Virus record (IMG/VR): IMGVR_UViG_3300042455_000971
Span: 1 to 39,172 of that record
Origin: a virus
Direction: 5' to 3' (one strand)
DNA length: 39,172 bases
Part shown: in pieces, positions 26,816 through 39,172 of the stretch
How the letters are laid out: each line of letters begins with the position of its first letter
How positions within the stretch are numbered: position 1 is the stretch's first letter
The notes under the pieces: generated by a model
Database searches by the model: none
What the model was told of the DNA's origin: nothing
What the model saw: only the letters and a program-made list of their open reading frames with translations
Program-made: the position numbers and the translations under genes

Positions 26816-27012
26816 TGAGCAGGATCCCGTTCTCGACGCCCAACAGCTCGATTTCGGCACGCAGCCCGCACTACCAGGCAGAGCGTGCCAGGCGCGGCAA
26901 GAGCATATCCGAGGGGATGCGCCGGGCCGCCGAGGAGCGTGAGCGCCTGGCCGGTTTGAGCGATCGGGAGAGCGCCGCGGAGGATCTCGCCGAGGCTGTT
27001 ACTCGAAGATGA
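26815..27012 (+). CDS. small charged protein at the end of the late operon
   Basis: 65 residues, start overlapping the previous stop by 1 bp (TAATG). The first 20 residues are polar (IPFSTPNSSISARSPHY), the rest is a highly charged helix (ERARRGKS, GMRRAAEERERLAGL, ESAAEDLAEAV). Probably the last gene of the rightward structural operon. Function unknown. Confidence 0.55.
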   Translation: MSRIPFSTPNSSISARSPHYQAERARRGKSISEGMRRAAEERERLAGLSDRESAAEDLAEAVTRR

Positions 27013-27330
27013 GTAGTGCCTGATTACGTGGGGTCAGGTGCTGAAATCCAGCAGTGCCGACGCCCTGAAGACAGGAAAAACCCAAGGCCTAACCCACTGA
27101 ATTGAAAGCTTTTAAACTCCGGGGTTAAGGCCTTGGGTGTCCAGAATCGGATACTTCATCTGGTGTTATCGCCGATTTGGGTAAACCCAAACGAATCGGC
27201 ACCCAATGAAGAAAATCGGCGATTTTGACCGATCGTGAGTGTTTGTAGGCCGACAAAACCGATGCCGATTCGCGGCACTTTCGGCCCTAGTGCGGAGTTT
27301 AGTGCTGAACTCAGCAGCCCGATTTGGGTG
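27013..27330. other. 318 bp non-coding region rich in CCGATT words and palindromes
   Basis: No credible gene. It holds a terminator-like repeat at 27076-27138 (separate entry); GCCGATT at 27171 paired with AATCGGC at 27194, with TTGGGT/ACCCAA inside, making a near-perfect 30 bp palindrome; a perfect AAAATCG-G-CGATTTT palindrome at 27212-27226; and further CCGATT words at 27145 (minus), 27265 (plus) and 27321 (plus). This clustering on both strands suggests protein-binding sites or an origin-like region rather than mere spacer. Confidence 0.55.
27076..27138 (-). terminator. intrinsic terminator for the leftward RHH-HTH unit
   Basis: Arms ACCCAAGGCCTAACCC (27080-27095) and GGGTTAAGGCCTTGGGT (27122-27138) pair over 16 bp with one bulged base. 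Read leftward the stem is followed directly by TTTTT (27080-27076, sharing the end of the stem), a canonical U-run. Read rightward there is no T-run, though the stem may still slow transcription from the late operon. The loop is long, 26 bases, and contains a small AAAGCTTT palindrome. Confidence 0.7.
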
Positions 27331-27833: not shown

Positions 27834-27861
27834 AAAATATAGGTCCACGGATAGAAATCAA
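27834..27861 (-). promoter_or_regulatory. candidate leftward promoter of the RHH gene
   Basis: Read leftward: TTGATT (27861-27856), 16 bp, TATTTT (27839-27834). Its -35 region is inside the first GGATA-N14-TATCC repeat, which fits autoregulation. Confidence 0.45.
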
Positions 27862-27872
27862 CATTTTTATCC
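27849..27872. promoter_or_regulatory. operator-like repeat 1, GGATA-N14-TATCC
   Basis: GGATA at 27849-27853 and TATCC at 27868-27872; including one more base, CGGATA and TATCCG are exact inverses. It overlaps the -35 of the leftward promoter. Confidence 0.55.
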
Positions 27873-27881
27873 GGCGGGGTA

Positions 27882-27908
27882 TTGACTTTGGATAGGAAGC
27901 CGCATAAC
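27882..27908 (+). promoter_or_regulatory. candidate rightward promoter of the HNH unit
   Basis: TTGACT (27882-27887) followed after 15 bp by CATAAC (27903-27908), or by an overlapping TAACTA at 17 bp. The -35 match is good, the -10 moderate. The second operator-like repeat covers the spacer and -10, so binding there should block it. Confidence 0.45.
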
Positions 27909-27913
27909 TATCC
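27890..27913. promoter_or_regulatory. operator-like repeat 2, GGATA-N14-TATCC
   Basis: GGATA at 27890-27894 and TATCC at 27909-27913, the same 14 bp spacing as repeat 1 and 41 bp (about four helical turns) from it. The right arm continues as CTATCCACA, which is also one base from a DnaA box, so DnaA binding is an alternative reading. Confidence 0.55.
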
Positions 27914-27931
27914 ACACATCAAGGAGCCGAC

Positions 27932-28387
27932 ATGAAGACCAAGGGACGGATCAATCGGGTGAATGTGGTGGACGGTAGCGTGATCAAGCGCCCGGCCAAC
28001 CAGCAGCGCAATCCCGAGAACTGGGCAGATCTTCGCGAACAGCGCCGCGCGCTTCAGACCGCCGATGGCAAGGTCTATTGCGGCACCTGCGCTGAGGTTG
28101 AGGGTGGCCCGTTCCGTTTCGAGCTGCATCACCGGCTCTACAATCAATTCGGCCAGGAGCGCATCGAGGACGTGATCCTCCTCTGCGAGCCCTGCCATGA
28201 TGCCATCACCTCGCGGATCCGCACGAAGCGGTATGCCGCCGGTGACATGAGCATCACTGTAGAATTCTCGACCGCTGAAGAAGCGCCGAGATATGTGCCG
28301 CAGGCGCGGCGCATCGAGGTGAAAGTGGAGCAGAAGACTGAGCCAGCAAGACCAGCCTTCCGCCCCACCTCACGTAAACACGGCTAA
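27932..28387 (+). CDS. HNH endonuclease-like protein
   Basis: 151 residues. The HNH core is clear: Cys50-x2-Cys53, then ELHHRLYNQFGQERIEDVILL with His66/His67, and Cys85-x2-Cys88-His89 (LCEPCHDAI). The four Cys bind structural zinc, while His67 and His89 would hold the catalytic metal. HNH proteins nick or cut DNA in phage packaging, recombination or homing; no intron is seen, so a recombination or defence role is possible. The C-terminal third is basic and Pro-rich. AAGGAG lies 7 bp before the ATG. It is the first gene of a rightward unit that continues with the RAMP-like gene and the repeat array. Confidence 0.82.
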   Translation: MKTKGRINRVNVVDGSVIKRPANQQRNPENWADLREQRRALQTADGKVYCGTCAEVEGGPFRFELHHRLYNQFGQERIEDVILLCEPCHDAITSRIRTKRYAAGDMSITVEFSTAEEAPRYVPQARRIEVKVEQKTEPARPAFRPTSRKHG

Positions 28388-29011: not shown

Positions 29012-29019
29012 CGATGCAG

Positions 29020-29045
29020 CCGGTGGCGGGATCCCCTGCCACCGG
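29020..29045 (+). repeat. hairpin at the 5' edge of the repeat array
   Basis: CCGGTGGC (29020-29027) and GCCACCGG (29038-29045) pair perfectly around GGGATCCCCT, which itself contains a GGGATCCC palindrome. It starts 8 bp after the RAMP-like gene and ends 6 bp before the first array unit. Confidence 0.6.
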
Positions 29046-29051
29046 CGCCAT

Positions 29052-29464
29052 GGGTTTCGTGGCCTGGCAAGGCGTGGCTAGGCTCGGCAAGGTGCGGCAT
29101 GGCAAGGCGAGGCATGGGTTTCGCGGCCCGGCAAGGCAAGGCAAGGCGAGGCGTGGTATGGCGAGGCCTGGCATGGGTTTCGTGGTTTGGCGCGGTTAGG
29201 CCAGGCACGGCGAGGCGTGGTATGGCGAGGCATGGGTTTCGCGGCGCGGTGAGGCGTGGCGAGGCAAGGCTAGGCGCGGCCTGGCATGGCGAGGGTTTCA
29301 AGGCGAGGCATGGCAAGGCACGGCATGGCTAGGCAAGGCATGGCACGGCGTGGGTTTCACGGCGCGGTTAGGCTGGGCTAGGTAGGGCGTGGCAAGGCGC
29401 GGCAAGGGCATCCCGGCGGGGCATGGCGGGGCGCGGCCTGGCATGGCAAGGCGCGGCGGGGAAC
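29052..29464 (+). repeat. higher-order GGYNN array: seven units of ~59 bp
   Basis: The DNA is a run of GGC(or GGT)-N-N pentamers. Every 59 bp a 9-base block GGGTTTCNN interrupts it, at 29052, 29116, 29175, 29234, 29293 and 29352 (spacings 64, 59, 59, 59, 59). Each unit is 9 bases plus ten pentamers; the first has eleven. A seventh, decayed unit starts at 29411 with TCCCGGCGG in place of GGGTTTCNN and runs to the terminator. The NN pairs vary from pentamer to pentamer while GG(C/T) is constant. The G-rich strand satisfies a two-quartet G-quadruplex pattern (GG with 3-base loops) throughout. Rightward frames are closed by TAG codons, so it is not coding on that strand. Confidence 0.9.
29052..29464 (+). 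ncRNA. possible structured RNA from the GGYNN array
   Basis: The array lies downstream of the HNH and RAMP-like genes in the same direction, with a hairpin at its start and an intrinsic terminator exactly at its end, so a transcript from the promoter at 27882 would carry it as a ~410-base 3' segment. Whether it acts as RNA, as DNA sites or as both cannot be read from the sequence. Confidence 0.3.
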
Positions 29465-29499
29465 GAAAACGGCGGCGGGGTAACCTGGCCGCCGTTTTC
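29465..29499. terminator. bidirectional intrinsic terminator between array and integrase
   Basis: GAAAACGGCGGC (29465-29476) and GCCGCCGTTTTC (29488-29499) are exact inverses, giving a 12 bp stem. It has TTTT at the end in both directions, so it can end the rightward array transcript and the leftward integrase transcript, whose stop codon is at 29520-29522. Confidence 0.85.
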
Positions 29500-29519
29500 T
29501 ATTGCCCTGGTGCGCTCCC

Positions 29520-32259: not shown

Positions 32260-32459
32260 CCACCATTACCGCATTCGCCGACAAGCTCGACCAGATGCAA
32301 CAGGGCATCCTCGATCGCGCCGCCCGCATCCAGATCTTTAAGGAAGACGCCGAAGCGAGGCGCCAGGCCTTGGTCGATGGCGTCAATGCCTGCTACGCCG
32401 ACGTGCAGGCGGCCCTCGACGCCGAGCTGGCTGCGCTGCGCGGGCTCATCGGTGAGTGA
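32256..32459 (+). CDS. small coiled-coil protein
   Basis: 67 residues starting at a GTG that overlaps the previous stop (GTGA). Almost entirely helical, heptad-like (FADKLDQMQQGILDRAARIQ; VQAALDAELAALRGLIG). One Cys. Function unknown. It overlaps the GcrA-like gene by 8 bp, so its translation may feed that gene. Confidence 0.6.
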   Translation: MTTITAFADKLDQMQQGILDRAARIQIFKEDAEARRQALVDGVNACYADVQAALDAELAALRGLIGE

Positions 32460-32898
32460 TACCCCCAGCCAACGCGATGCGATCCTGGCACTGTGGGCCG
32501 AAGGGTTCACATCCGGCCAGGTAGCGCAGAAGCTTGGAGTTTCCCGCAGTGTCGTGATGGGGGCCATCTACAGGGCTCGCCAGCACGGCACCGCCGTGGA
32601 TCCCGAGGGCAGGCACGTCGTGTCCAAGCGCGCCGCTCCCCCGCCCCAGCCGCTCCTGGTGAAGCTTACGCCGGTGGCGAAGCTCAATGACAGGTCCAGC
32701 GGTGAGAAGGGCGTGCGCCTCATCCGTCTCCGCGCAACCGGCTGCCGGTTTCCTGTCGGCACCAACAGGAAGGGCGAACACCTCTTCTGCAACAGCCACC
32801 AGCAGGAGGGCTCCTCCTACTGCCAGCGCCATCACCAGGTGACGCACGTAAAACCCACACCACAAGTCAAAAGGAAGATCATCACATGGCGAATGTAG
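32452..32898 (+). CDS. GcrA-like cell-cycle regulator
   Basis: 148 residues from a GTG at 32452. QRDAILALWAEGFTSGQVAQ and LGVSRSVVMGAIYRARQHG (residues 7-46) match the N-terminal HTH of GcrA, which reads LKxLWxEGLSASQIAxxLG..TRNAVIGKxHR. The C-terminal GCRFPVG (Cys98), FCNS (Cys113) and SYCQRHH (Cys124, His127/128) match the GcrA C-terminal block CxWPxG...FCG...YCxxH. In Alphaproteobacteria GcrA binds sigma-70 RNA polymerase and activates promoters bearing m6A in GANTC. A phage copy may redirect this to phage promoters or alter host timing. It overlaps the RuvC start by 13 bp. Confidence 0.85.
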   Translation: MSDTPSQRDAILALWAEGFTSGQVAQKLGVSRSVVMGAIYRARQHGTAVDPEGRHVVSKRAAPPPQPLLVKLTPVAKLNDRSSGEKGVRLIRLRATGCRFPVGTNRKGEHLFCNSHQQEGSSYCQRHHQVTHVKPTPQVKRKIITWRM

Positions 32899-33371
32899 TG
32901 CTTGGCATCGATCCCGGCTTGTCCGGCGCCATTGCTGCCGTCCACATGGATTCCGGCAAGCTGATTAGCGTCTACGATATGCCGGTCTTCTCCAAGAAGG
33001 GCTCCAAGAAGACAGTCCGAGAGATCAATGATCAAGAGCTGACGAACCTCATCGTGGCCATGGCGCCATCCTTCGGCGTCATCGAGGCCGTGTCCGCGAT
33101 GCCAGGGCAGGGAGTAACTAGCGTCTTTAGACTTGGCGCTGCTTTCGGCACTGCGAAGGGCGTCATGGCTGGCCTCGGCATTCCCTTCGTGGCCGTCCAC
33201 CCGGCGACCTGGAAGAAGGGCATGAAGCTCTCGGGCGACAAGGCACTCTCGCGCCAGATGGCCACGCGCCAGTGGCCCGATATGTCGAAGAGCTTCGCCC
33301 GCGTGAAAGACGACGGACGCGCCGAAGCCGCGCTCCTGGCTCTGTGGTTTCAGCGTGGAGGTCATCGATGA
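32886..33371 (+). CDS. RuvC-like Holliday junction resolvase
   Basis: 161 residues. LGIDPGLSGAIA gives catalytic Asp9, GVIEAVSAMPGQG Glu67, and KDDGRAEAALLALW the late acidic pair (Asp142/143 with Glu147 in the place of the usual Asp). GVTSVFRLGAAFGTAKGVM and PATWKKGMK are further family blocks. Phage RuvC enzymes cut branched DNA before packaging or during recombination. AAGGA lies ~10 bp before the ATG. Its stop overlaps the next small gene. Confidence 0.87.
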   Translation: MANVVLGIDPGLSGAIAAVHMDSGKLISVYDMPVFSKKGSKKTVREINDQELTNLIVAMAPSFGVIEAVSAMPGQGVTSVFRLGAAFGTAKGVMAGLGIPFVAVHPATWKKGMKLSGDKALSRQMATRQWPDMSKSFARVKDDGRAEAALLALWFQRGGHR

Positions 33372-33475: not shown

Positions 33476-33907
33476 ATGTATAGCATTACCATCAACGCCA
33501 AGACCGCCCAAGAACTGGAAAACTTGTCTGCCCTTCTCGCAGGCCACGGTGTCAACAAGACCCCCGAGAAGACCCTCGCTGACTTCGGCCTGCAGGAGAT
33601 CACGGACTTCCTGGCCGAGCATCACCGTCTGCATGTCGTCGAGGCCCAGCCCCAGGCTGCAGCCCCCAAGGCGAAGAAGAAGGAGAAGCCCGTCGAGGAG
33701 CCGAACCTCGATCCCGCCGGTCTGAAGGCTGACGCCATGTCGATGCTTAATGGCGTCTACGCGCAGCCCGAAGGCAAGAAGATCGCCATGGCCATCCTGA
33801 AGGAATTCAGTGTACGGAATTTCAACTCGATCCCTGACCACCTGGGCGATGAATTCCACCGCCGCACCCTCGAGATGCTCGACGCCGCCGGGCTGGTGGG
33901 TGCCTGA
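33476..33907 (+). CDS. early protein of unknown function
   Basis: 143 residues: an N-terminal strand-helix part (YSITINAKTAQELENLSALL), a central Ala/Lys/Pro linker (PKAKKKEKPVEEP) and a C-terminal helical part (LLNGVYAQPEGKK-like; AILKEFSVRNFNSIPDHLG; EMLDAAGLVG). Two-domain layout with a charged linker fits a protein that bridges partners. It is coupled (1 bp overlap) to the nuclease gene, so a role in recombination or DNA end handling is possible. Confidence 0.65.
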   Translation: MYSITINAKTAQELENLSALLAGHGVNKTPEKTLADFGLQEITDFLAEHHRLHVVEAQPQAAAPKAKKKEKPVEEPNLDPAGLKADAMSMLNGVYAQPEGKKIAMAILKEFSVRNFNSIPDHLGDEFHRRTLEMLDAAGLVGA

Positions 33908-35052
33908 TGAGCAAGATCCACGCAGCACTGGGGGCCAGCTCCTCCAACATCTGGATGAACTGCCCAGAGGCTGGCCGCAACATGCGCCACGCTCCCAGGC
34001 AGCCCACCAGCTTCGCCGCAGCCGAGGGCACGGTTGCTCACGACATCGCCGAGCAGGCACTCATCTTCGGCCTGCAGCAAGTCTGGCCCCTCGTTGGTAG
34101 CGTCATCGAATGCGAGGGCCAGGAGATCACCGTTACCGATGAGATGATCGAAGCTGCCGGTAAATACTGCAGCTTCGTGGACCTCATGACGTCTCCAGGC
34201 GATACCCGCCTGACCGAACAGATGGTCAGCCTGGATGCTGCCGTCTACGGGGAAGGTAAGCCCGCACCCGAGCCTCTCTTTGGCACGACGGATGCCGTCA
34301 TCATCAGCGAAGACGGCACCACCGTCACGTCTCTTGATTTCAAGTATGGATCGCTGCCGGTGGATGTAACCACCCTGCAGCTCCTCTACTACGGCGCCGC
34401 CGTGATCTACACGCTGGCGCCCGAGGCGAAGAAGCTCAACGTGGCAATCGTCCAGCCGCGGGCCGACCACAAGGACGGTCGGACGCGCATCATGACCTAC
34501 AGCCGCGATGAGGTTGATACCTTCGTCGATCGTGTGCGTGACGTCGTCATGGGCATCACCAGCGGCGCCGGTGGCCACAACCCCGGAACATGGTGCCACT
34601 GGTGCCCGCTTTCAGGATCCTGCCCGGCCCTGGCCGAGCGCAACATGGCGGTCGTGGGTGACGTGAAGACGCTCAAGTCACCGGCTGTTCTGACGCCCGA
34701 AACACTCGCAAAGGTCCTCTCACATGCTGCGCCCATCCGCCGGTGGCTTGATGCCGTCGAGGAGGAGGGGATCCGTCGCCTGGAGAAGGATGAGCCCGTG
34801 CCAGGCTTCCGCCTGGTGCCGAAGAGGGCCATGCGCAAGTGGGTCGATAAGGACTCGCGTGCCGTCTATGCGCGCATCGCTCAGGTCCTCACCGGCGAGA
34901 AGGCAGCGCAGCTCCTCGACTACAACGTCCTCTCGCCCACGAAGGCAGAGAGCGTCCTCAGCAAGGATGAATACCAGCGCCTTGTGGACCAGGGCCTCAT
35001 CGCCGCCGTGTCTTCAGGCATGACCATCGCAGCGGAGAAAGGCAGCAAGTGA
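33907..35052 (+). CDS. DUF2800 RecB/Cas4-type PD-(D/E)XK nuclease
   Basis: 381 residues. SFAAAEGTVAHDIAEQAL supplies Glu40 and His45, FGTTDAVII Asp129, and TSLDFKYG Asp144-x-Lys146, the PD-(D/E)XK core. Cys19 (WMNCPEA) plus Cys230-x2-Cys233-x5-Cys239 (CHWCPLSGSC) reproduce the one-plus-three cysteine pattern that holds a 4Fe-4S cluster in Cas4 and AddB. Such nucleases resect DNA ends; together with the SSB at 37049 this suggests a recombination/replication module. The following gene starts at a GTG overlapping the stop. Confidence 0.82.
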   Translation: MSKIHAALGASSSNIWMNCPEAGRNMRHAPRQPTSFAAAEGTVAHDIAEQALIFGLQQVWPLVGSVIECEGQEITVTDEMIEAAGKYCSFVDLMTSPGDTRLTEQMVSLDAAVYGEGKPAPEPLFGTTDAVIISEDGTTVTSLDFKYGSLPVDVTTLQLLYYGAAVIYTLAPEAKKLNVAIVQPRADHKDGRTRIMTYSRDEVDTFVDRVRDVVMGITSGAGGHNPGTWCHWCPLSGSCPALAERNMAVVGDVKTLKSPAVLTPETLAKVLSHAAPIRRWLDAVEEEGIRRLEKDEPVPGFRLVPKRAMRKWVDKDSRAVYARIAQVLTGEKAAQLLDYNVLSPTKAESVLSKDEYQRLVDQGLIAAVSSGMTIAAEKGSK

Positions 35053-36126: not shown

Positions 36127-36374
36127 TCAGCTCCGAGATCCTCATAGCACTCCTGTTGGCGATCCGGTGCGAGACTGTCGTGATGCCGGATCCGTTCCTG
36201 AATGCAACAGTGGCCGTCAACACCTGCCAGCGGGACAATGACGTCGGCAAGGCAATCCTCGCCGCATGGACACCCCCAAAGCCCGAATCGGTGGTGCCCA
36301 AGACCCCCCAGAAGAAGAAGGTCGTCAAGACGACCAAGAAGAAAAAAATCTACCGCAAGAAGCGCCGCAGGTAG
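36123..36374 (+). CDS. small basic-tailed protein with signal-like start
   Basis: 83 residues, GTG start overlapping the previous stop. The N-terminus is hydrophobic (SSEILIALLLAIRC) and could be a signal peptide or anchor ending near Cys16. Two further Cys-containing stretches follow, and the last 25 residues are almost all Lys, Arg, Thr and Val (KKKVVKTTKKKKIYRKKRRR). Such a tail would bind nucleic acid or acidic surfaces. No family recognised. Confidence 0.55.
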   Translation: MISSEILIALLLAIRCETVVMPDPFLNATVAVNTCQRDNDVGKAILAAWTPPKPESVVPKTPQKKKVVKTTKKKKIYRKKRRR

Positions 36375-36572
36375 TTGACGAACAAGAAACAAGAGATCAG
36401 TTTGGGTTGACTTGCGGCGCACAGAACCGCCAGTCAATAACACGCTTTCCGGCATTGTGCCGGTAACCGGCGCCACGGCGGACCCGCGGCATTCCTCCAC
36501 CAAGGAAAGACCACACGGCCCGGCTGACCAATGTCCCCCGACACAGCCGGGCCACCCTGGTTACTACACCCC
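36375..36572 (+). other. 198 bp spacer with two hairpins before the DnaA-like gene
   Basis: No gene seen. It has CCGGCA-TTG-TGCCGG (36449-36463), and a perfect 10 bp inverted repeat GGCCCGGCTG (36517-36526) / CAGCCGGGCC (36544-36553) whose 17-base loop contains an in-frame ATG at 36531. TTGACT (36407-36412 region) resembles a -35 but has no good -10. The structure may control start choice or expression of the DnaA-like gene. Confidence 0.45.
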
Positions 36573-36992
36573 ATGAATGCACAGCAAACTGAAGACTTCA
36601 TTCGCACCCAGCTCGACGCCATGCTTACCGCGCCAGGCCTCCGCGAAACACCGAAGAAGATCTCGGCGCCGTCAACTGAGCGCAAGATGCCGCCCAGGCC
36701 GACGCGCACCTTGCGGTACGACACCGAGCTGGTCCTGGCCGCAGTAGGTATCGCACACGACATCAAGGTCGATGAGATGCGCTCCAAGGCCCGCTTCAAG
36801 GCCATCGGATTCGCCAGGCAGCATGCCTACTGGACCCTGCGCACGAAGGCCAAGATGACCCTCGATGGCATCGCAAAGGCCCTGAACCGCAGCGATCACG
36901 GAACGATCGTTCATGGCGTCAAGACCTTCGAAGCCCGCAAGCACATCCACCAGGATCTCATATTCACTGTCGAGAAGCTCCTCGATAACTGA
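36573..36992 (+). CDS. free-standing DnaA domain IV-like protein
   Basis: 139 residues from the ATG at 36573; an ATG at 36531 in the loop of a hairpin would add 14. Residues 53-125 match the DnaA C-terminal DNA-binding domain: VGIAHDIKVDEMRSKARFKA, then GFARQHAYWTLRTKAKMTLD, then IAKALNRSDHGTIVHGVKTF. The signature R-S-D-H-G-T-I-V-H corresponds to GGRDHTTVLHA of DnaA, which contacts the DnaA box. The ATPase domain is absent; the first 50 residues are a polar linker. It could bind phage or host DnaA boxes to recruit or to block initiation. Confidence 0.85.
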   Translation: MNAQQTEDFIRTQLDAMLTAPGLRETPKKISAPSTERKMPPRPTRTLRYDTELVLAAVGIAHDIKVDEMRSKARFKAIGFARQHAYWTLRTKAKMTLDGIAKALNRSDHGTIVHGVKTFEARKHIHQDLIFTVEKLLDN

Positions 36993-37048: not shown

Positions 37049-37663
37049 ATGAGCGATAACACTGAAACCCGCATGAGCCTCGAGGCCCGCATGGCCTACG
37101 TGCATCTCGAGAAGCCGCGCAAGGCTTCCGAGGGCGCCAAGGAGAAGTATTCCGTCACGGCTCTCATCCCGAAGGATTCGCCGGTGCTGGCGCAGATCAA
37201 GGCCGCCACCACTGCCGCAAAGACCAAGAAGTTCGGCCCCAAGCCGCCCAGCGGGCTGAAGGCTTGCGTGCGCGATGGTGACGAGAAGGACGCCGAAACC
37301 GGCGAATTCCTGCGCAAGGGTGACGAGTTCCGTGGACACTTCTACATCACCTGCAGTTCCGACAAGCCAGTGCCCGTCGTCACAGGCAAGGACCGCACGC
37401 CCGCCAAGCCCGAGCATATGTGCTCTGGCTACTATGGCGTCATTTCCCTGAATTTTTATGGATACGACGTGTCGGGCTCAAAGGGCGTGGCTGCTGGCCT
37501 CAATGCCGTGTGGATCACGCGCAAGGGCGAGCTTCTTGGCAATGGTGATGCCACTGAGGCCTTCGCAGGCATGAAGGTTGCCGTCGATGACTTCACCGCA
37601 AGTGCAAGCGCCGGTGCTGATCCCTTTGCCGGTGGCGCAGCTTCTGAAGAAGATCCGTTCTGA
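37049..37663 (+). CDS. DUF2815 single-stranded DNA-binding protein
   Basis: 204 residues. RMAYVHLEKPRKASEGAKEKYSVTALIPK in parts, GDEFRGHFYITCSSDKPVPVV, and GYYGVISLNFYGYDVSGSKGVAAGLNAV match the phage DUF2815 family, OB-fold proteins related in role to T7 gp2.5. The tail EEDPF resembles the acidic DDIPF tip by which SSBs recruit partner enzymes. It probably coats single strands during replication and recombination, working with the DUF2800 nuclease. A GACGCAAAACCCGAAA box lies 20 bp before the ATG; the ribosome site is weak. Confidence 0.85.
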   Translation: MSDNTETRMSLEARMAYVHLEKPRKASEGAKEKYSVTALIPKDSPVLAQIKAATTAAKTKKFGPKPPSGLKACVRDGDEKDAETGEFLRKGDEFRGHFYITCSSDKPVPVVTGKDRTPAKPEHMCSGYYGVISLNFYGYDVSGSKGVAAGLNAVWITRKGELLGNGDATEAFAGMKVAVDDFTASASAGADPFAGGAASEEDPF

Positions 37664-37674
37664 GGAGAATGAAC

Positions 37675-37983
37675 ATGGGAACGAATGACGGAGACGAAAC
37701 CGACCAGATCGAGGCTTACGTTGACATCCCCGACGAGCCGAACAAGGTGCCCACCATCGAATTGTTCGTGAGAGCAATCAAGGGCCTGGAAGACGACAAG
37801 GCACAAATCGCCGAAGCCGTCGCTACCCTCTACGGCACCGCCAAGGAATACGGCTTCAATACGAAGCTGATACGCAAGAGCGTGGCCCTCCTTCACAAGG
37901 GCGAGGATGAGCGCACGGCAGAAGTCGATCTTCTCGATACGGCCATGAGCCTCGTCGCAGACGTCGAAGACGACGAAGCCTGA
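37675..37983 (+). CDS. GapR-like nucleoid protein (DUF2312)
   Basis: 102 residues from the ATG at 37675, which has GAGGAG 7 bp upstream; an ATG at 37669 is too close to that site. LFVRAIKGLEDDKAQIAEAV, LYGTAKEYGFNTKLIRKSVA and GEDERTAEVDLLDTAMSL follow the GapR pattern (IERIERLEEEKxxIxxDIxDVYAEAKGxGFDxKxxRxxIRLRK...). GapR in Caulobacter clamps overtwisted DNA ahead of replication and transcription. A longer acidic N-terminus (GDETDQIEAYVDIPDEP) and a tail EDDEA are extra. Several basic residues in the last helix of the host protein are replaced here (ALLHKGED), so binding may differ. Confidence 0.82.
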   Translation: MGTNDGDETDQIEAYVDIPDEPNKVPTIELFVRAIKGLEDDKAQIAEAVATLYGTAKEYGFNTKLIRKSVALLHKGEDERTAEVDLLDTAMSLVADVEDDEA

Positions 37984-38048: not shown

Positions 38049-38684
38049 ATGAATAACACCCCAGCACAAACCGAAGGAGACTTCCGCGTCGAAGTCCGCG
38101 TCAGGAATGCGCGCATCCTTCGCGCCATGAAAGCACGCGGCATCAAGACGTTTCGTGAGCTTGCATCCCTCGCAATGGTGAGCCCCTCCAGGTTGGGAGC
38201 AATCCTATCCTTCAAGGAAAAACCTACTTCCAATGGCGAGTGGAACAATGCTGCATTCGGCATCTCGGCGGCTCTACACGTCGAGCCCGAAGATCTGTGG
38301 CCGGAGCATATGAAGCACCTCCTGGCCAACAAGAGCTTCGTGTCATACGATACTGATGATCCGTCGATATCGCAGGCATCGATCGCGAGCTACGTGCCGC
38401 CTGACCTCCAGATCGATCTGAATAATTGGGTGATGGATGCCATCCCGAAGCTCTCACCCAGAGAGGCGATGGTGATTGGTTATCGTTTCGCTGATGGCGA
38501 GCGCACCTGCGCGGAGATCGGCGAAGAGATGGGCGTGGGCAAGGCGACGATCCACCTTCTCGAGAAGAGGGCAATCCGAAAACTGAAGCACCCAAGCCGC
38601 ATGAGGAGGGCGCCCACTCCTGCCGAATGGGATGACTTTCAGGAGGAGCTTAGGAAGCTTCGGGAGGATGCCGCACATGAATAA
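38049..38684 (+). CDS. XRE HTH / sigma-region-4 fusion regulator
   Basis: 211 residues. Residues ~15-85 are an XRE-type unit (ARILRAMKARGIKTFRELAS, LAMVSPSRLGAILSFKEKP, ISAALHVEPEDLWP). Residues 130-182 are a sigma-70 region 4-like HTH: KLSPREAMVIGYRFADGE, RTCAEIGEEMGVGKATIHLL, EKRAIRKLKHPS. Region 4 contacts the -35 element and the polymerase beta flap, and the fused XRE part could add sequence specificity. This suggests an activator for middle or late phage genes. The product ends eight bases after the methyltransferase start, so they are translationally coupled. Confidence 0.8.
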   Translation: MNNTPAQTEGDFRVEVRVRNARILRAMKARGIKTFRELASLAMVSPSRLGAILSFKEKPTSNGEWNNAAFGISAALHVEPEDLWPEHMKHLLANKSFVSYDTDDPSISQASIASYVPPDLQIDLNNWVMDAIPKLSPREAMVIGYRFADGERTCAEIGEEMGVGKATIHLLEKRAIRKLKHPSRMRRAPTPAEWDDFQEELRKLREDAAHE

Positions 38685-39172
38685 CATCAGCCACCTTAAC
38701 ACCGGCGGATCCCATCGCCATGGCGCCCTCGAGCAGTATGAGCGCAGCTCGAGCGACCTCTACACCACTCCAGCCGATGCCGTGCTGCGCCTCTACAAGG
38801 CAAGGCCGCACCTCAAGGCGATGACGGTGTGGGATTCATCGGCAGGCCTGGGTCACATCGTGAGTGCCGTCGTCACCGCCGGGGGATCCTGCATCGGCAC
38901 TGAGCTTCACGACCACCCGCATCCCAGGGTGGCCGGGATCCAGACGGGCTTCGATCTCCTCAAGACGCAGCATCCCTTCTCCAACATGGCCGTCGTGAAC
39001 CCGCCATATAACCAGGCCGACAAGCACATCAGGCACATGCTCAACCTGGGCTGCGATGTGTGGGCGATCCTGCGCTTCAACTGGATCACGGCAAAGGGCA
39101 GGGCGCATCTCATGCCGCACCTCGAGGAGATCCTCATGGTGGGCCGCGTTGGCATGCTTCCTCCTGGTGTCG
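38677..39172 (+). CDS. adenine-specific DNA methyltransferase, 5' part
   Basis: 165 codons before the window ends; the 3' part is missing. WDSSAGLGH (residues 52-60) is in the place of motif I, the S-adenosylmethionine pocket, and VVNPPYNQAD (107-114) is motif IV, NPPY, the catalytic site of N6-adenine (or N4-cytosine) methyltransferases. YTTPADAVLRLY near residue 30 and LRFNWITAKGR near 132 are further blocks of the phage N6-adenine type. Its target cannot be read. It may protect phage DNA or create m6A marks; a link to the GcrA-like protein, which reads m6A, is attractive but unproved. Confidence 0.82.
   Translation, partial: MNNISHLNTGGSHRHGALEQYERSSSDLYTTPADAVLRLYKARPHLKAMTVWDSSAGLGHIVSAVVTAGGSCIGTELHDHPHPRVAGIQTGFDLLKTQHPFSNMAVVNPPYNQADKHIRHMLNLGCDVWAILRFNWITAKGRAHLMPHLEEILMVGRVGMLPPGV

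Follow-up and report, generated by a model that had tools for sequence, protein, structure and literature searches.

The analysed window, the whole 39,172 bases of IMG/VR record IMGVR_UViG_3300042455_000971, is assigned to a virus by IMG/VR and listed there without a completeness value. As the final gene is truncated at the right end (39172), the record represents a fragment. Genes of the same strand encode, in this order, a GcrA-domain protein, a RuvC-like protein, an exonuclease, several unknowns, a protein with a DnaA C-terminal domain (DnaA_C, DnaA domain IV), a single-stranded DNA-binding protein (SSB), a GapR-domain protein, a regulator with sigma-70 region 4, and a cut gene. The features of this region are:

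32449..32898, plus strand: GcrA-domain protein, with a longer open reading frame from 32377 (PF07750, 2e-16)
32886..33371, plus strand: RuvC-like Holliday junction resolvase (phrog_1770, 1e-31; Pfam RuvC under cut-off)
33907..35052, plus strand: exonuclease, DUF2800/PD-(D/E)XK (PF10926, 3.8e-55; PF12705, 6.1e-10; phrog_69, 5e-63)
36375..36572, plus strand: 198-nt gap upstream of the DnaA_C gene with many inverted repeats (36407-36437, 36448-36482, 36517-36553; inverted-repeat search)
36573..36992, plus strand: free-standing DnaA domain IV protein, 139 aa (PF08299, 1.3e-11; AlphaFold2 model; Foldseek)
36579..36626, plus strand: predicted N-terminal helix, residues 3-18, ahead of a low-confidence linker (AlphaFold2 model)
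36726..36923, plus strand: Bac_DnaA_C domain (six-frame Pfam match)
37049..37663, plus strand: Enc34/Gp2.5-like ssDNA-binding/annealing protein (PF10991, 5.8e-33; phrog_112, 3.4e-39)
37669..37983, plus strand: GapR-domain protein (PF10073, 5.1e-9)
38049..38684, plus strand: regulator with sigma-70 region 4 (PF04545, 1.5e-12)

The initial annotation had placed the DnaA_C gene in an early operon, and the run of same-strand genes from the RuvC-like gene at 32886 through 38684 lends fair support to this setting. The gene at 38632, which is cut by the record end, has no Pfam match. An integrase and a repressor-like gene are encoded on the other strand, which makes a temperate phage probable. Degenerate repeats of the GGCAWGGCGWGG type extend over about 500 bp (29012-29519) from a phrog_4652 gene to the integrase, with a 20-mer present 11 times at ≥76%. 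A structured leader in the gap 36375-36572 was considered and rejected: the chosen stretch 36380-36600 gave a fold z of -5.4, yet 36360-36559 ranked just 9th among 250 unselected stretches scanned on the plus strand of the window from 24000 on. The strongest RNA fold of that scan was found at 27060-27259 (z -5.2), in an apparently intergenic region (27000-27260) with repeated CGATT motifs. Neither Rfam families (gathering scores) nor tRNAs were detected in the window.

Bac_DnaA_C (PF08299) is the sole Pfam match of the 139-aa protein (E 1.3e-11; 44.8 bits, above the curated cut-off of 31.5), covering residues 52-117 and profile positions 2-67 of 69, and the only match to this family in the six-frame Pfam search of the entire record. 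Pfam revealed no AAA+ domain in the protein, and against TIGR00362, the equivalog of full-length DnaA, it scored 43 bits versus the 343.9 required. An alternative in-frame ATG at 36531 would extend it to 153 aa. In the AlphaFold2 model, built from a 73-sequence alignment, the blocks within residues 51-138 reach mean pLDDT values of 93-98, while the linker is weak; the helical N-terminal segment is a candidate for protein contacts. Foldseek searches of the PDB with this model returned DnaA chains at all ranks from 1 to 12, two of them at E ≤ 0.001, including 3pvp_B (DnaA-DBD with DNA; 7.4e-5), and for 1j1v_A (domain IV with a DnaA box) gave a TM score of 0.81 by target length and an rmsd of 2.2. 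The 139-aa protein is predicted to adopt the DnaA domain IV fold, and the earlier claim of a free-standing DnaA domain IV, lacking the AAA+ domain, at 36573-36992 is borne out by Pfam, AlphaFold2 and Foldseek. It shares with bacterial DnaA domain IV (PF08299; 1j1v, 3pvp) the fold of the model, the helix-turn-helix and six of seven compared DNA-reading residues, but lacks domains I-III and carries a Gly at the position of T435. Without AAA+, such a protein should not itself form an ATP-DnaA filament or melt DNA.

A tblastn search of 50,697 phage records found nothing similar to the 139-aa protein at 1e-3, and as single query it had no match in IMG/VR. A profile-type scan seeded with six proteins, the window protein included, retrieved at least 77 viral loci; among the matches listed, these loci and the seeds comprise 73 distinct proteins of 81-303 aa. 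All 73 match Bac_DnaA_C at E ≤ 1e-3 and no AAA+ family, with the qualification that three of them (L019, L033, L039) run off the contig start and may belong to longer proteins. At E ≤ 1e-3, 16 of the 73 match phrog_16091 (unknown function), 12 match phrog_27829 ('DnaA-like replication initiation protein') and three match phrog_30669 ('replication initiation protein'), families which likewise contain free-standing DnaA_C phage proteins. The 139-aa protein itself matches none of the three at 1e-3; phrog_16091 alone appears, at 0.027, and the PHROG 27829 profile is absent at E ≤ 0.1. Two relatives used as queries led to named phages with a DnaA-like annotation, and also to records that look like bacterial DnaA (e.g. 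0.5-Mb Salmonella entries). Pfam places Bac_DnaA_C over the cut-off, with no AAA+, in five of five named phages, Rhizobium phage RHph_N28_2, Aurantimonas phage AmM-1 and the pelagiphages HTVC034P, Skadi-3 and Skadi-4, where the gene lies near recombination, primase or methylase genes. The three pelagiphages carry a nuclease, an annealing protein and the DnaA-like protein together, and AmM-1 combines a methyltransferase, DnaA_C and a primase. Among the annotated products of HTVC034P, which are mostly hypothetical, there is no polymerase, primase or helicase. The PHROGs names and the annotated isolates establish that free-standing DnaA_C phage proteins are already a known kind, and the 139-aa protein is confirmed as a real member of it, encoded in a phage recombination/replication region. 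The literature matches listed contain no functional study of a free-standing phage DnaA domain IV protein.

Related viruses show similar surroundings. PF08299 is matched in seven of eight viral contigs with an SSB relative (E ≤ 5e-7; one over the cut-off, and six of the seven from a single lineage), the exception being L009. The DnaA_C gene adjoins the SSB gene in L002, and in L003-L008 it lies 2.2-2.4 kb upstream of it, with GapR, RuvC and exonuclease genes in between. The window portal protein matches only a Microcystis and a Rhizobium phage among the phage records at 1e-5. No PF08299 match was found in the three diverged portal relatives with records >40 kb, namely L101 (a 41-kb contig with a portal 43% related to that of the window), RHph_N65 and Mae-Yong1326-1, so that the gene belongs to an exchangeable early module and not to the core of the phage group. 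The closest siblings of the window are contigs with a 100% identical portal; the one that carries GcrA ends at window position 33261, short of the DnaA_C gene, and its missing match is therefore uninformative. Searches of genome contigs for a prophage relative gave no match with the DnaA_C protein as query and one weak match with the SSB.

In the phmmer alignment to 1j1v, from whose chain the E. coli numbering was derived, residues R74, R82, D108, H109, T111 and H114 correspond to E. coli R399, R407, D433, H434, T436 and H439, and G110 occupies the position of T435. We take R407, D433, H434, T436 and H439 to be DnaA-box contact residues. Among the 73 listed proteins, the R407 column holds Arg in every one, the window protein included, and the R399 column Arg in 63 and Lys in seven; both columns lie outside the search pattern. 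The D, H, T and H columns were part of this pattern and their invariance is therefore uninformative, and at T435, where only T, G or S were permitted, the listed proteins have T (47), S (24) or G (2). A review on DnaA reports that R399 reads the 5′ part of the box via the minor groove and the helix from residue 434 its 3′ part, with defective box binding by the R399A and T435M variants (PMC5742627). Since T435M is defective and the 139-aa protein has Gly at this position, affinity for a canonical box should not be assumed.

The near-DnaA-box CTATCCACA at 27908-27916 had been put forward as a possible target. The motif is indeed present, but its reading as a DnaA site is not supported and was rejected: one-mismatch matches to TTATNCACA are not in excess in the window (11 versus 9.6 after shuffling, sd 3.3), and the near-box forms an arm of a palindrome that occurs twice. 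A perfect TTATNCACA does not occur in the 39,172 bases. The two palindromes are:

27849..27872, no strand assigned: palindrome 1, GGATAG-N12-TTATCC, probable repressor operator
27890..27913, no strand assigned: palindrome 2, GGATAG-N12-CTATCC, probable repressor operator, the right arm of which starts the near-DnaA-box

Both 24-bp elements (GGATAG-N12-YTATCC, spaced 41 bp) lie between divergent genes, a leftward one at 27835 with weak similarity to MobC/NikA and a rightward one at 27932 with weak similarity to HNH proteins, both under the cut-offs. YTATCC occurs 16 times on the two strands of the window, four times here (27849, 27867, 27890, 27908). Four matches within 70 bp are shown by 41 of 987 comparable motifs, and by a post hoc count YTATCC has the fewest total occurrences of the 27 that fall outside the 29-kb repeat region. 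A simple sigma-70 scan found no promoter near the palindromes. Judged by their layout, they are probably operators of a dimeric repressor.

DnaA itself acts as a transcription factor, and the 139-aa protein could likewise be a phage transcription regulator, with a DnaA_C helix-turn-helix that has come to recognise a new operator by drift and governs early genes. The inverted-repeat-rich gap before the DnaA_C gene would fit such a role, as would the TnpA-REP proteins of subclass 2.1.2, in which Bac_DnaA_C is also detached from DnaA, there C-terminal to a HuH nuclease domain, and whose flanking repeats are described as unlike DnaA boxes (PMC6006769). We nevertheless consider a regulator of this type unlikely: the base-reading positions, T435 excepted, are kept and not drifted, and at 27849-27913 the obvious operators, which adjoin the gene with weak similarity to MobC/NikA, are palindromic and not 9-bp asymmetric sites.

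Clusters of DnaA boxes in DnaA_C phages were also rejected. In 71 loci with free-standing DnaA_C (832,493 bases, window excluded), TTATNCACA was counted 23 times versus 18.0 (sd 4.1) after shuffling and TTWTNCACA 45 times versus 49.5 (sd 5.5); TTATCCACA exceeded the shuffles (10 versus 4.2, sd 1.8; largest of 50 shuffles 8) but its sites are scattered. For alphaproteobacterial phages, DnaA sites were likewise reported to lack positional asymmetry (PMC9437464).

Repeats of another type are found in relatives of the L106 lineage. In 10 of the 11 contigs listed, a VapE-like helicase gene is followed by GAYAG-core repeats beside an AT-rich stretch; the remaining contig, L007, stops short of the array region. 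Nine distinct arrays, each with 4-11 copies of a 9-bp repeat, were identified in L104-L113. Two named phages also carry arrays, which are absent from their listed annotated features and likely represent phage origins. The positions of the arrays are:

L106, 10058-10278, and likewise L112, L111, L113, L107, L109, L104, L105 and L110: iteron arrays after the VapE-like helicase gene
L114, 10311-10609 (record 44310-44608): AmM-1 array, about ten GGGAGGCWA repeats directly after the primase gene
L017, 34935-35133: RHph_N65 array, GGCGGAGAT repeats directly downstream of the helicase gene

The repeat of the L106-type array is TGCAGATAG. At one position of the repeat, C, T, A or G is found depending on the phage; within most arrays this base hardly varies, that of L113 being mixed. 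Other repeats were seen in further contigs: GCCGTAGCC forms mostly 12-bp spaced runs in L043, L047, L066 and L081, all with DnaA_C, and L079 has seven copies of CAAAGCTCG (≤1 mismatch) at 192-327 with a spacing of about 21 bp.

The arrays of L104-L113 and AmM-1 are what would be expected if DnaA_C were an iteron-binding phage initiator like lambda O, bound to 9-bp repeats at the phage origin. DnaA_C is moreover the most diverged protein of the L106-lineage module (mean identity 0.63 versus 0.79-0.95 for the other eight), which suggested that it reads the iteron repeat. Covariation in this lineage argues against it. With nine taxa, 24 helicase columns fitted the iteron type versus 4.5 expected (0 of 500 permutations), where L111 is the only phage with one of the iteron types and six of the eight helicase columns listed do no more than separate it; with seven taxa, 16 DnaA_C columns fitted versus 14.5 (21% of permutations). 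For these counts the mixed L113 array was scored as type T and its twin L108 was dropped. The helicase is thus favoured as iteron binder in the L106 lineage, with the caveat that its gene lies beside the array and linkage may explain the signal. In addition, RHph_N65 has an array and no DnaA_C (Pfam and a purpose-built HMM), and near the DnaA_C gene of the window, where the record ends downstream at 39172, no array was found. DnaA_C as iteron binder is not supported, and for the 139-aa protein we regard the role of an iteron-binding initiator as very improbable.

In the window, GcrA- and GapR-domain genes lie on either side of the DnaA_C gene within about 5.5 kb. Both matches are at the level of the domain and far under the NCBIfam equivalog cut-offs. 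In 14 control genomes GapR was found in Caulobacter only, and GcrA in Caulobacter as well as, unexpectedly, in Sulfolobus; from this pattern we infer that the host is probably an alphaproteobacterium. Phage GcrA is already published for phiCbK-like phages (PMC9437464). Among 46 DnaA_C records ≥15 kb (50 searched minus four without DnaA_C; five L056/L086 near-copies had been left out earlier), GapR was over the cut-off in 11, GcrA in five and both in none. In 45 GapR records, all those ≥30 kb among 80 of 386 loci, DnaA_C was over the cut-off in eight, GcrA in six and both in one (1.1 expected); at E ≤ 1e-3 the numbers were nine, eight and three (1.6 expected; Fisher p 0.19). One other GapR record, the L189 contig (GapR detected by tblastn), exceeds the Pfam cut-offs for both DnaA_C and GcrA. 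GapR and GcrA partners often lie 0.35-8.7 kb from DnaA_C, and are closer to it than if they were placed uniformly (GapR, Fisher's combined p 6e-5; GcrA, 0.001), although related records were counted separately here and early genes cluster anyway. A linked system of GcrA, GapR and DnaA_C was rejected, as co-occurrence is not above chance among the 45 GapR records; the trio of the window is unusual and not a demonstrated system. That the three proteins (32.4-38.0 kb) would, as a small set of pared-down host chromosome-cycle factors, jointly steer replication and transcription of an alphaproteobacterial host towards phage DNA, with the DnaA piece as dominant-negative at boxes, appears to us quite unlikely.

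The initial annotation had suggested that the domain marks a phage origin, titrates host DnaA boxes or blocks host initiation, and each of these is a possible role. A simpler host-directed role would be that of a competitor which occupies DnaA boxes at the host oriC or at DnaA-controlled promoters, acts as dominant-negative and delays host initiation. The DNA-reading positions are kept, whereas clusters of boxes are absent from the DNA of the phage itself, and the GcrA- and GapR-domain proteins encoded in the same window are compatible with this. Precedents may be seen in YfdR of a cryptic prophage and in lambda P, which are reported to interfere with DnaA but are described as binding the DnaA protein and not as DnaA domains themselves (PMC4776307). 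The placement of the gene among replication/recombination genes, the replacement of T435 by Gly, and the linkage of the DnaA domain with GcrA at no more than chance in the 45 GapR records speak against it, and we rate this competitor as possible but somewhat doubtful.

We propose, as the most likely reading but at slightly less than even probability, that the 139-aa protein is a DNA-binding accessory of phage replication/recombination. Observed are the domain, the missing AAA+, the genes around it and their counterparts in comparable settings of other phages, along with the predicted fold. The proposal follows from domain and fold, from the place of the gene, downstream of those for RuvC and the exonuclease and immediately ahead of SSB, from the similar neighbourhoods in SSB relatives and named isolates, from the Arg at the R407 and R399 columns, and from the PHROGs names. 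Against it stand that no site was found on phage DNA, that the iteron type tracks the helicase, that the gene is not fixed, and that G110 replaces T435. As an accessory, DnaA domain IV with a short N-terminal helix and a linker would act as sequence-specific binder of double-stranded DNA and, in the early phase, may occupy DnaA-box-like sites. The N-terminal segment, or clustering of the protein, could then recruit the host replisome, or the recombination/replication proteins encoded nearby, to the bound DNA.

The L106-lineage arrays are good material for studying initiator specificity. A lone near-DnaA-box should not be taken as a target, as the example in the window turned out to be half a palindrome. 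Free-standing DnaA domain IV proteins occur at at least 77 viral loci, and for some of them the label 'replication initiator' is based solely on homology. Should these proteins act on the host oriC, they would represent a compact natural dominant-negative of DnaA.
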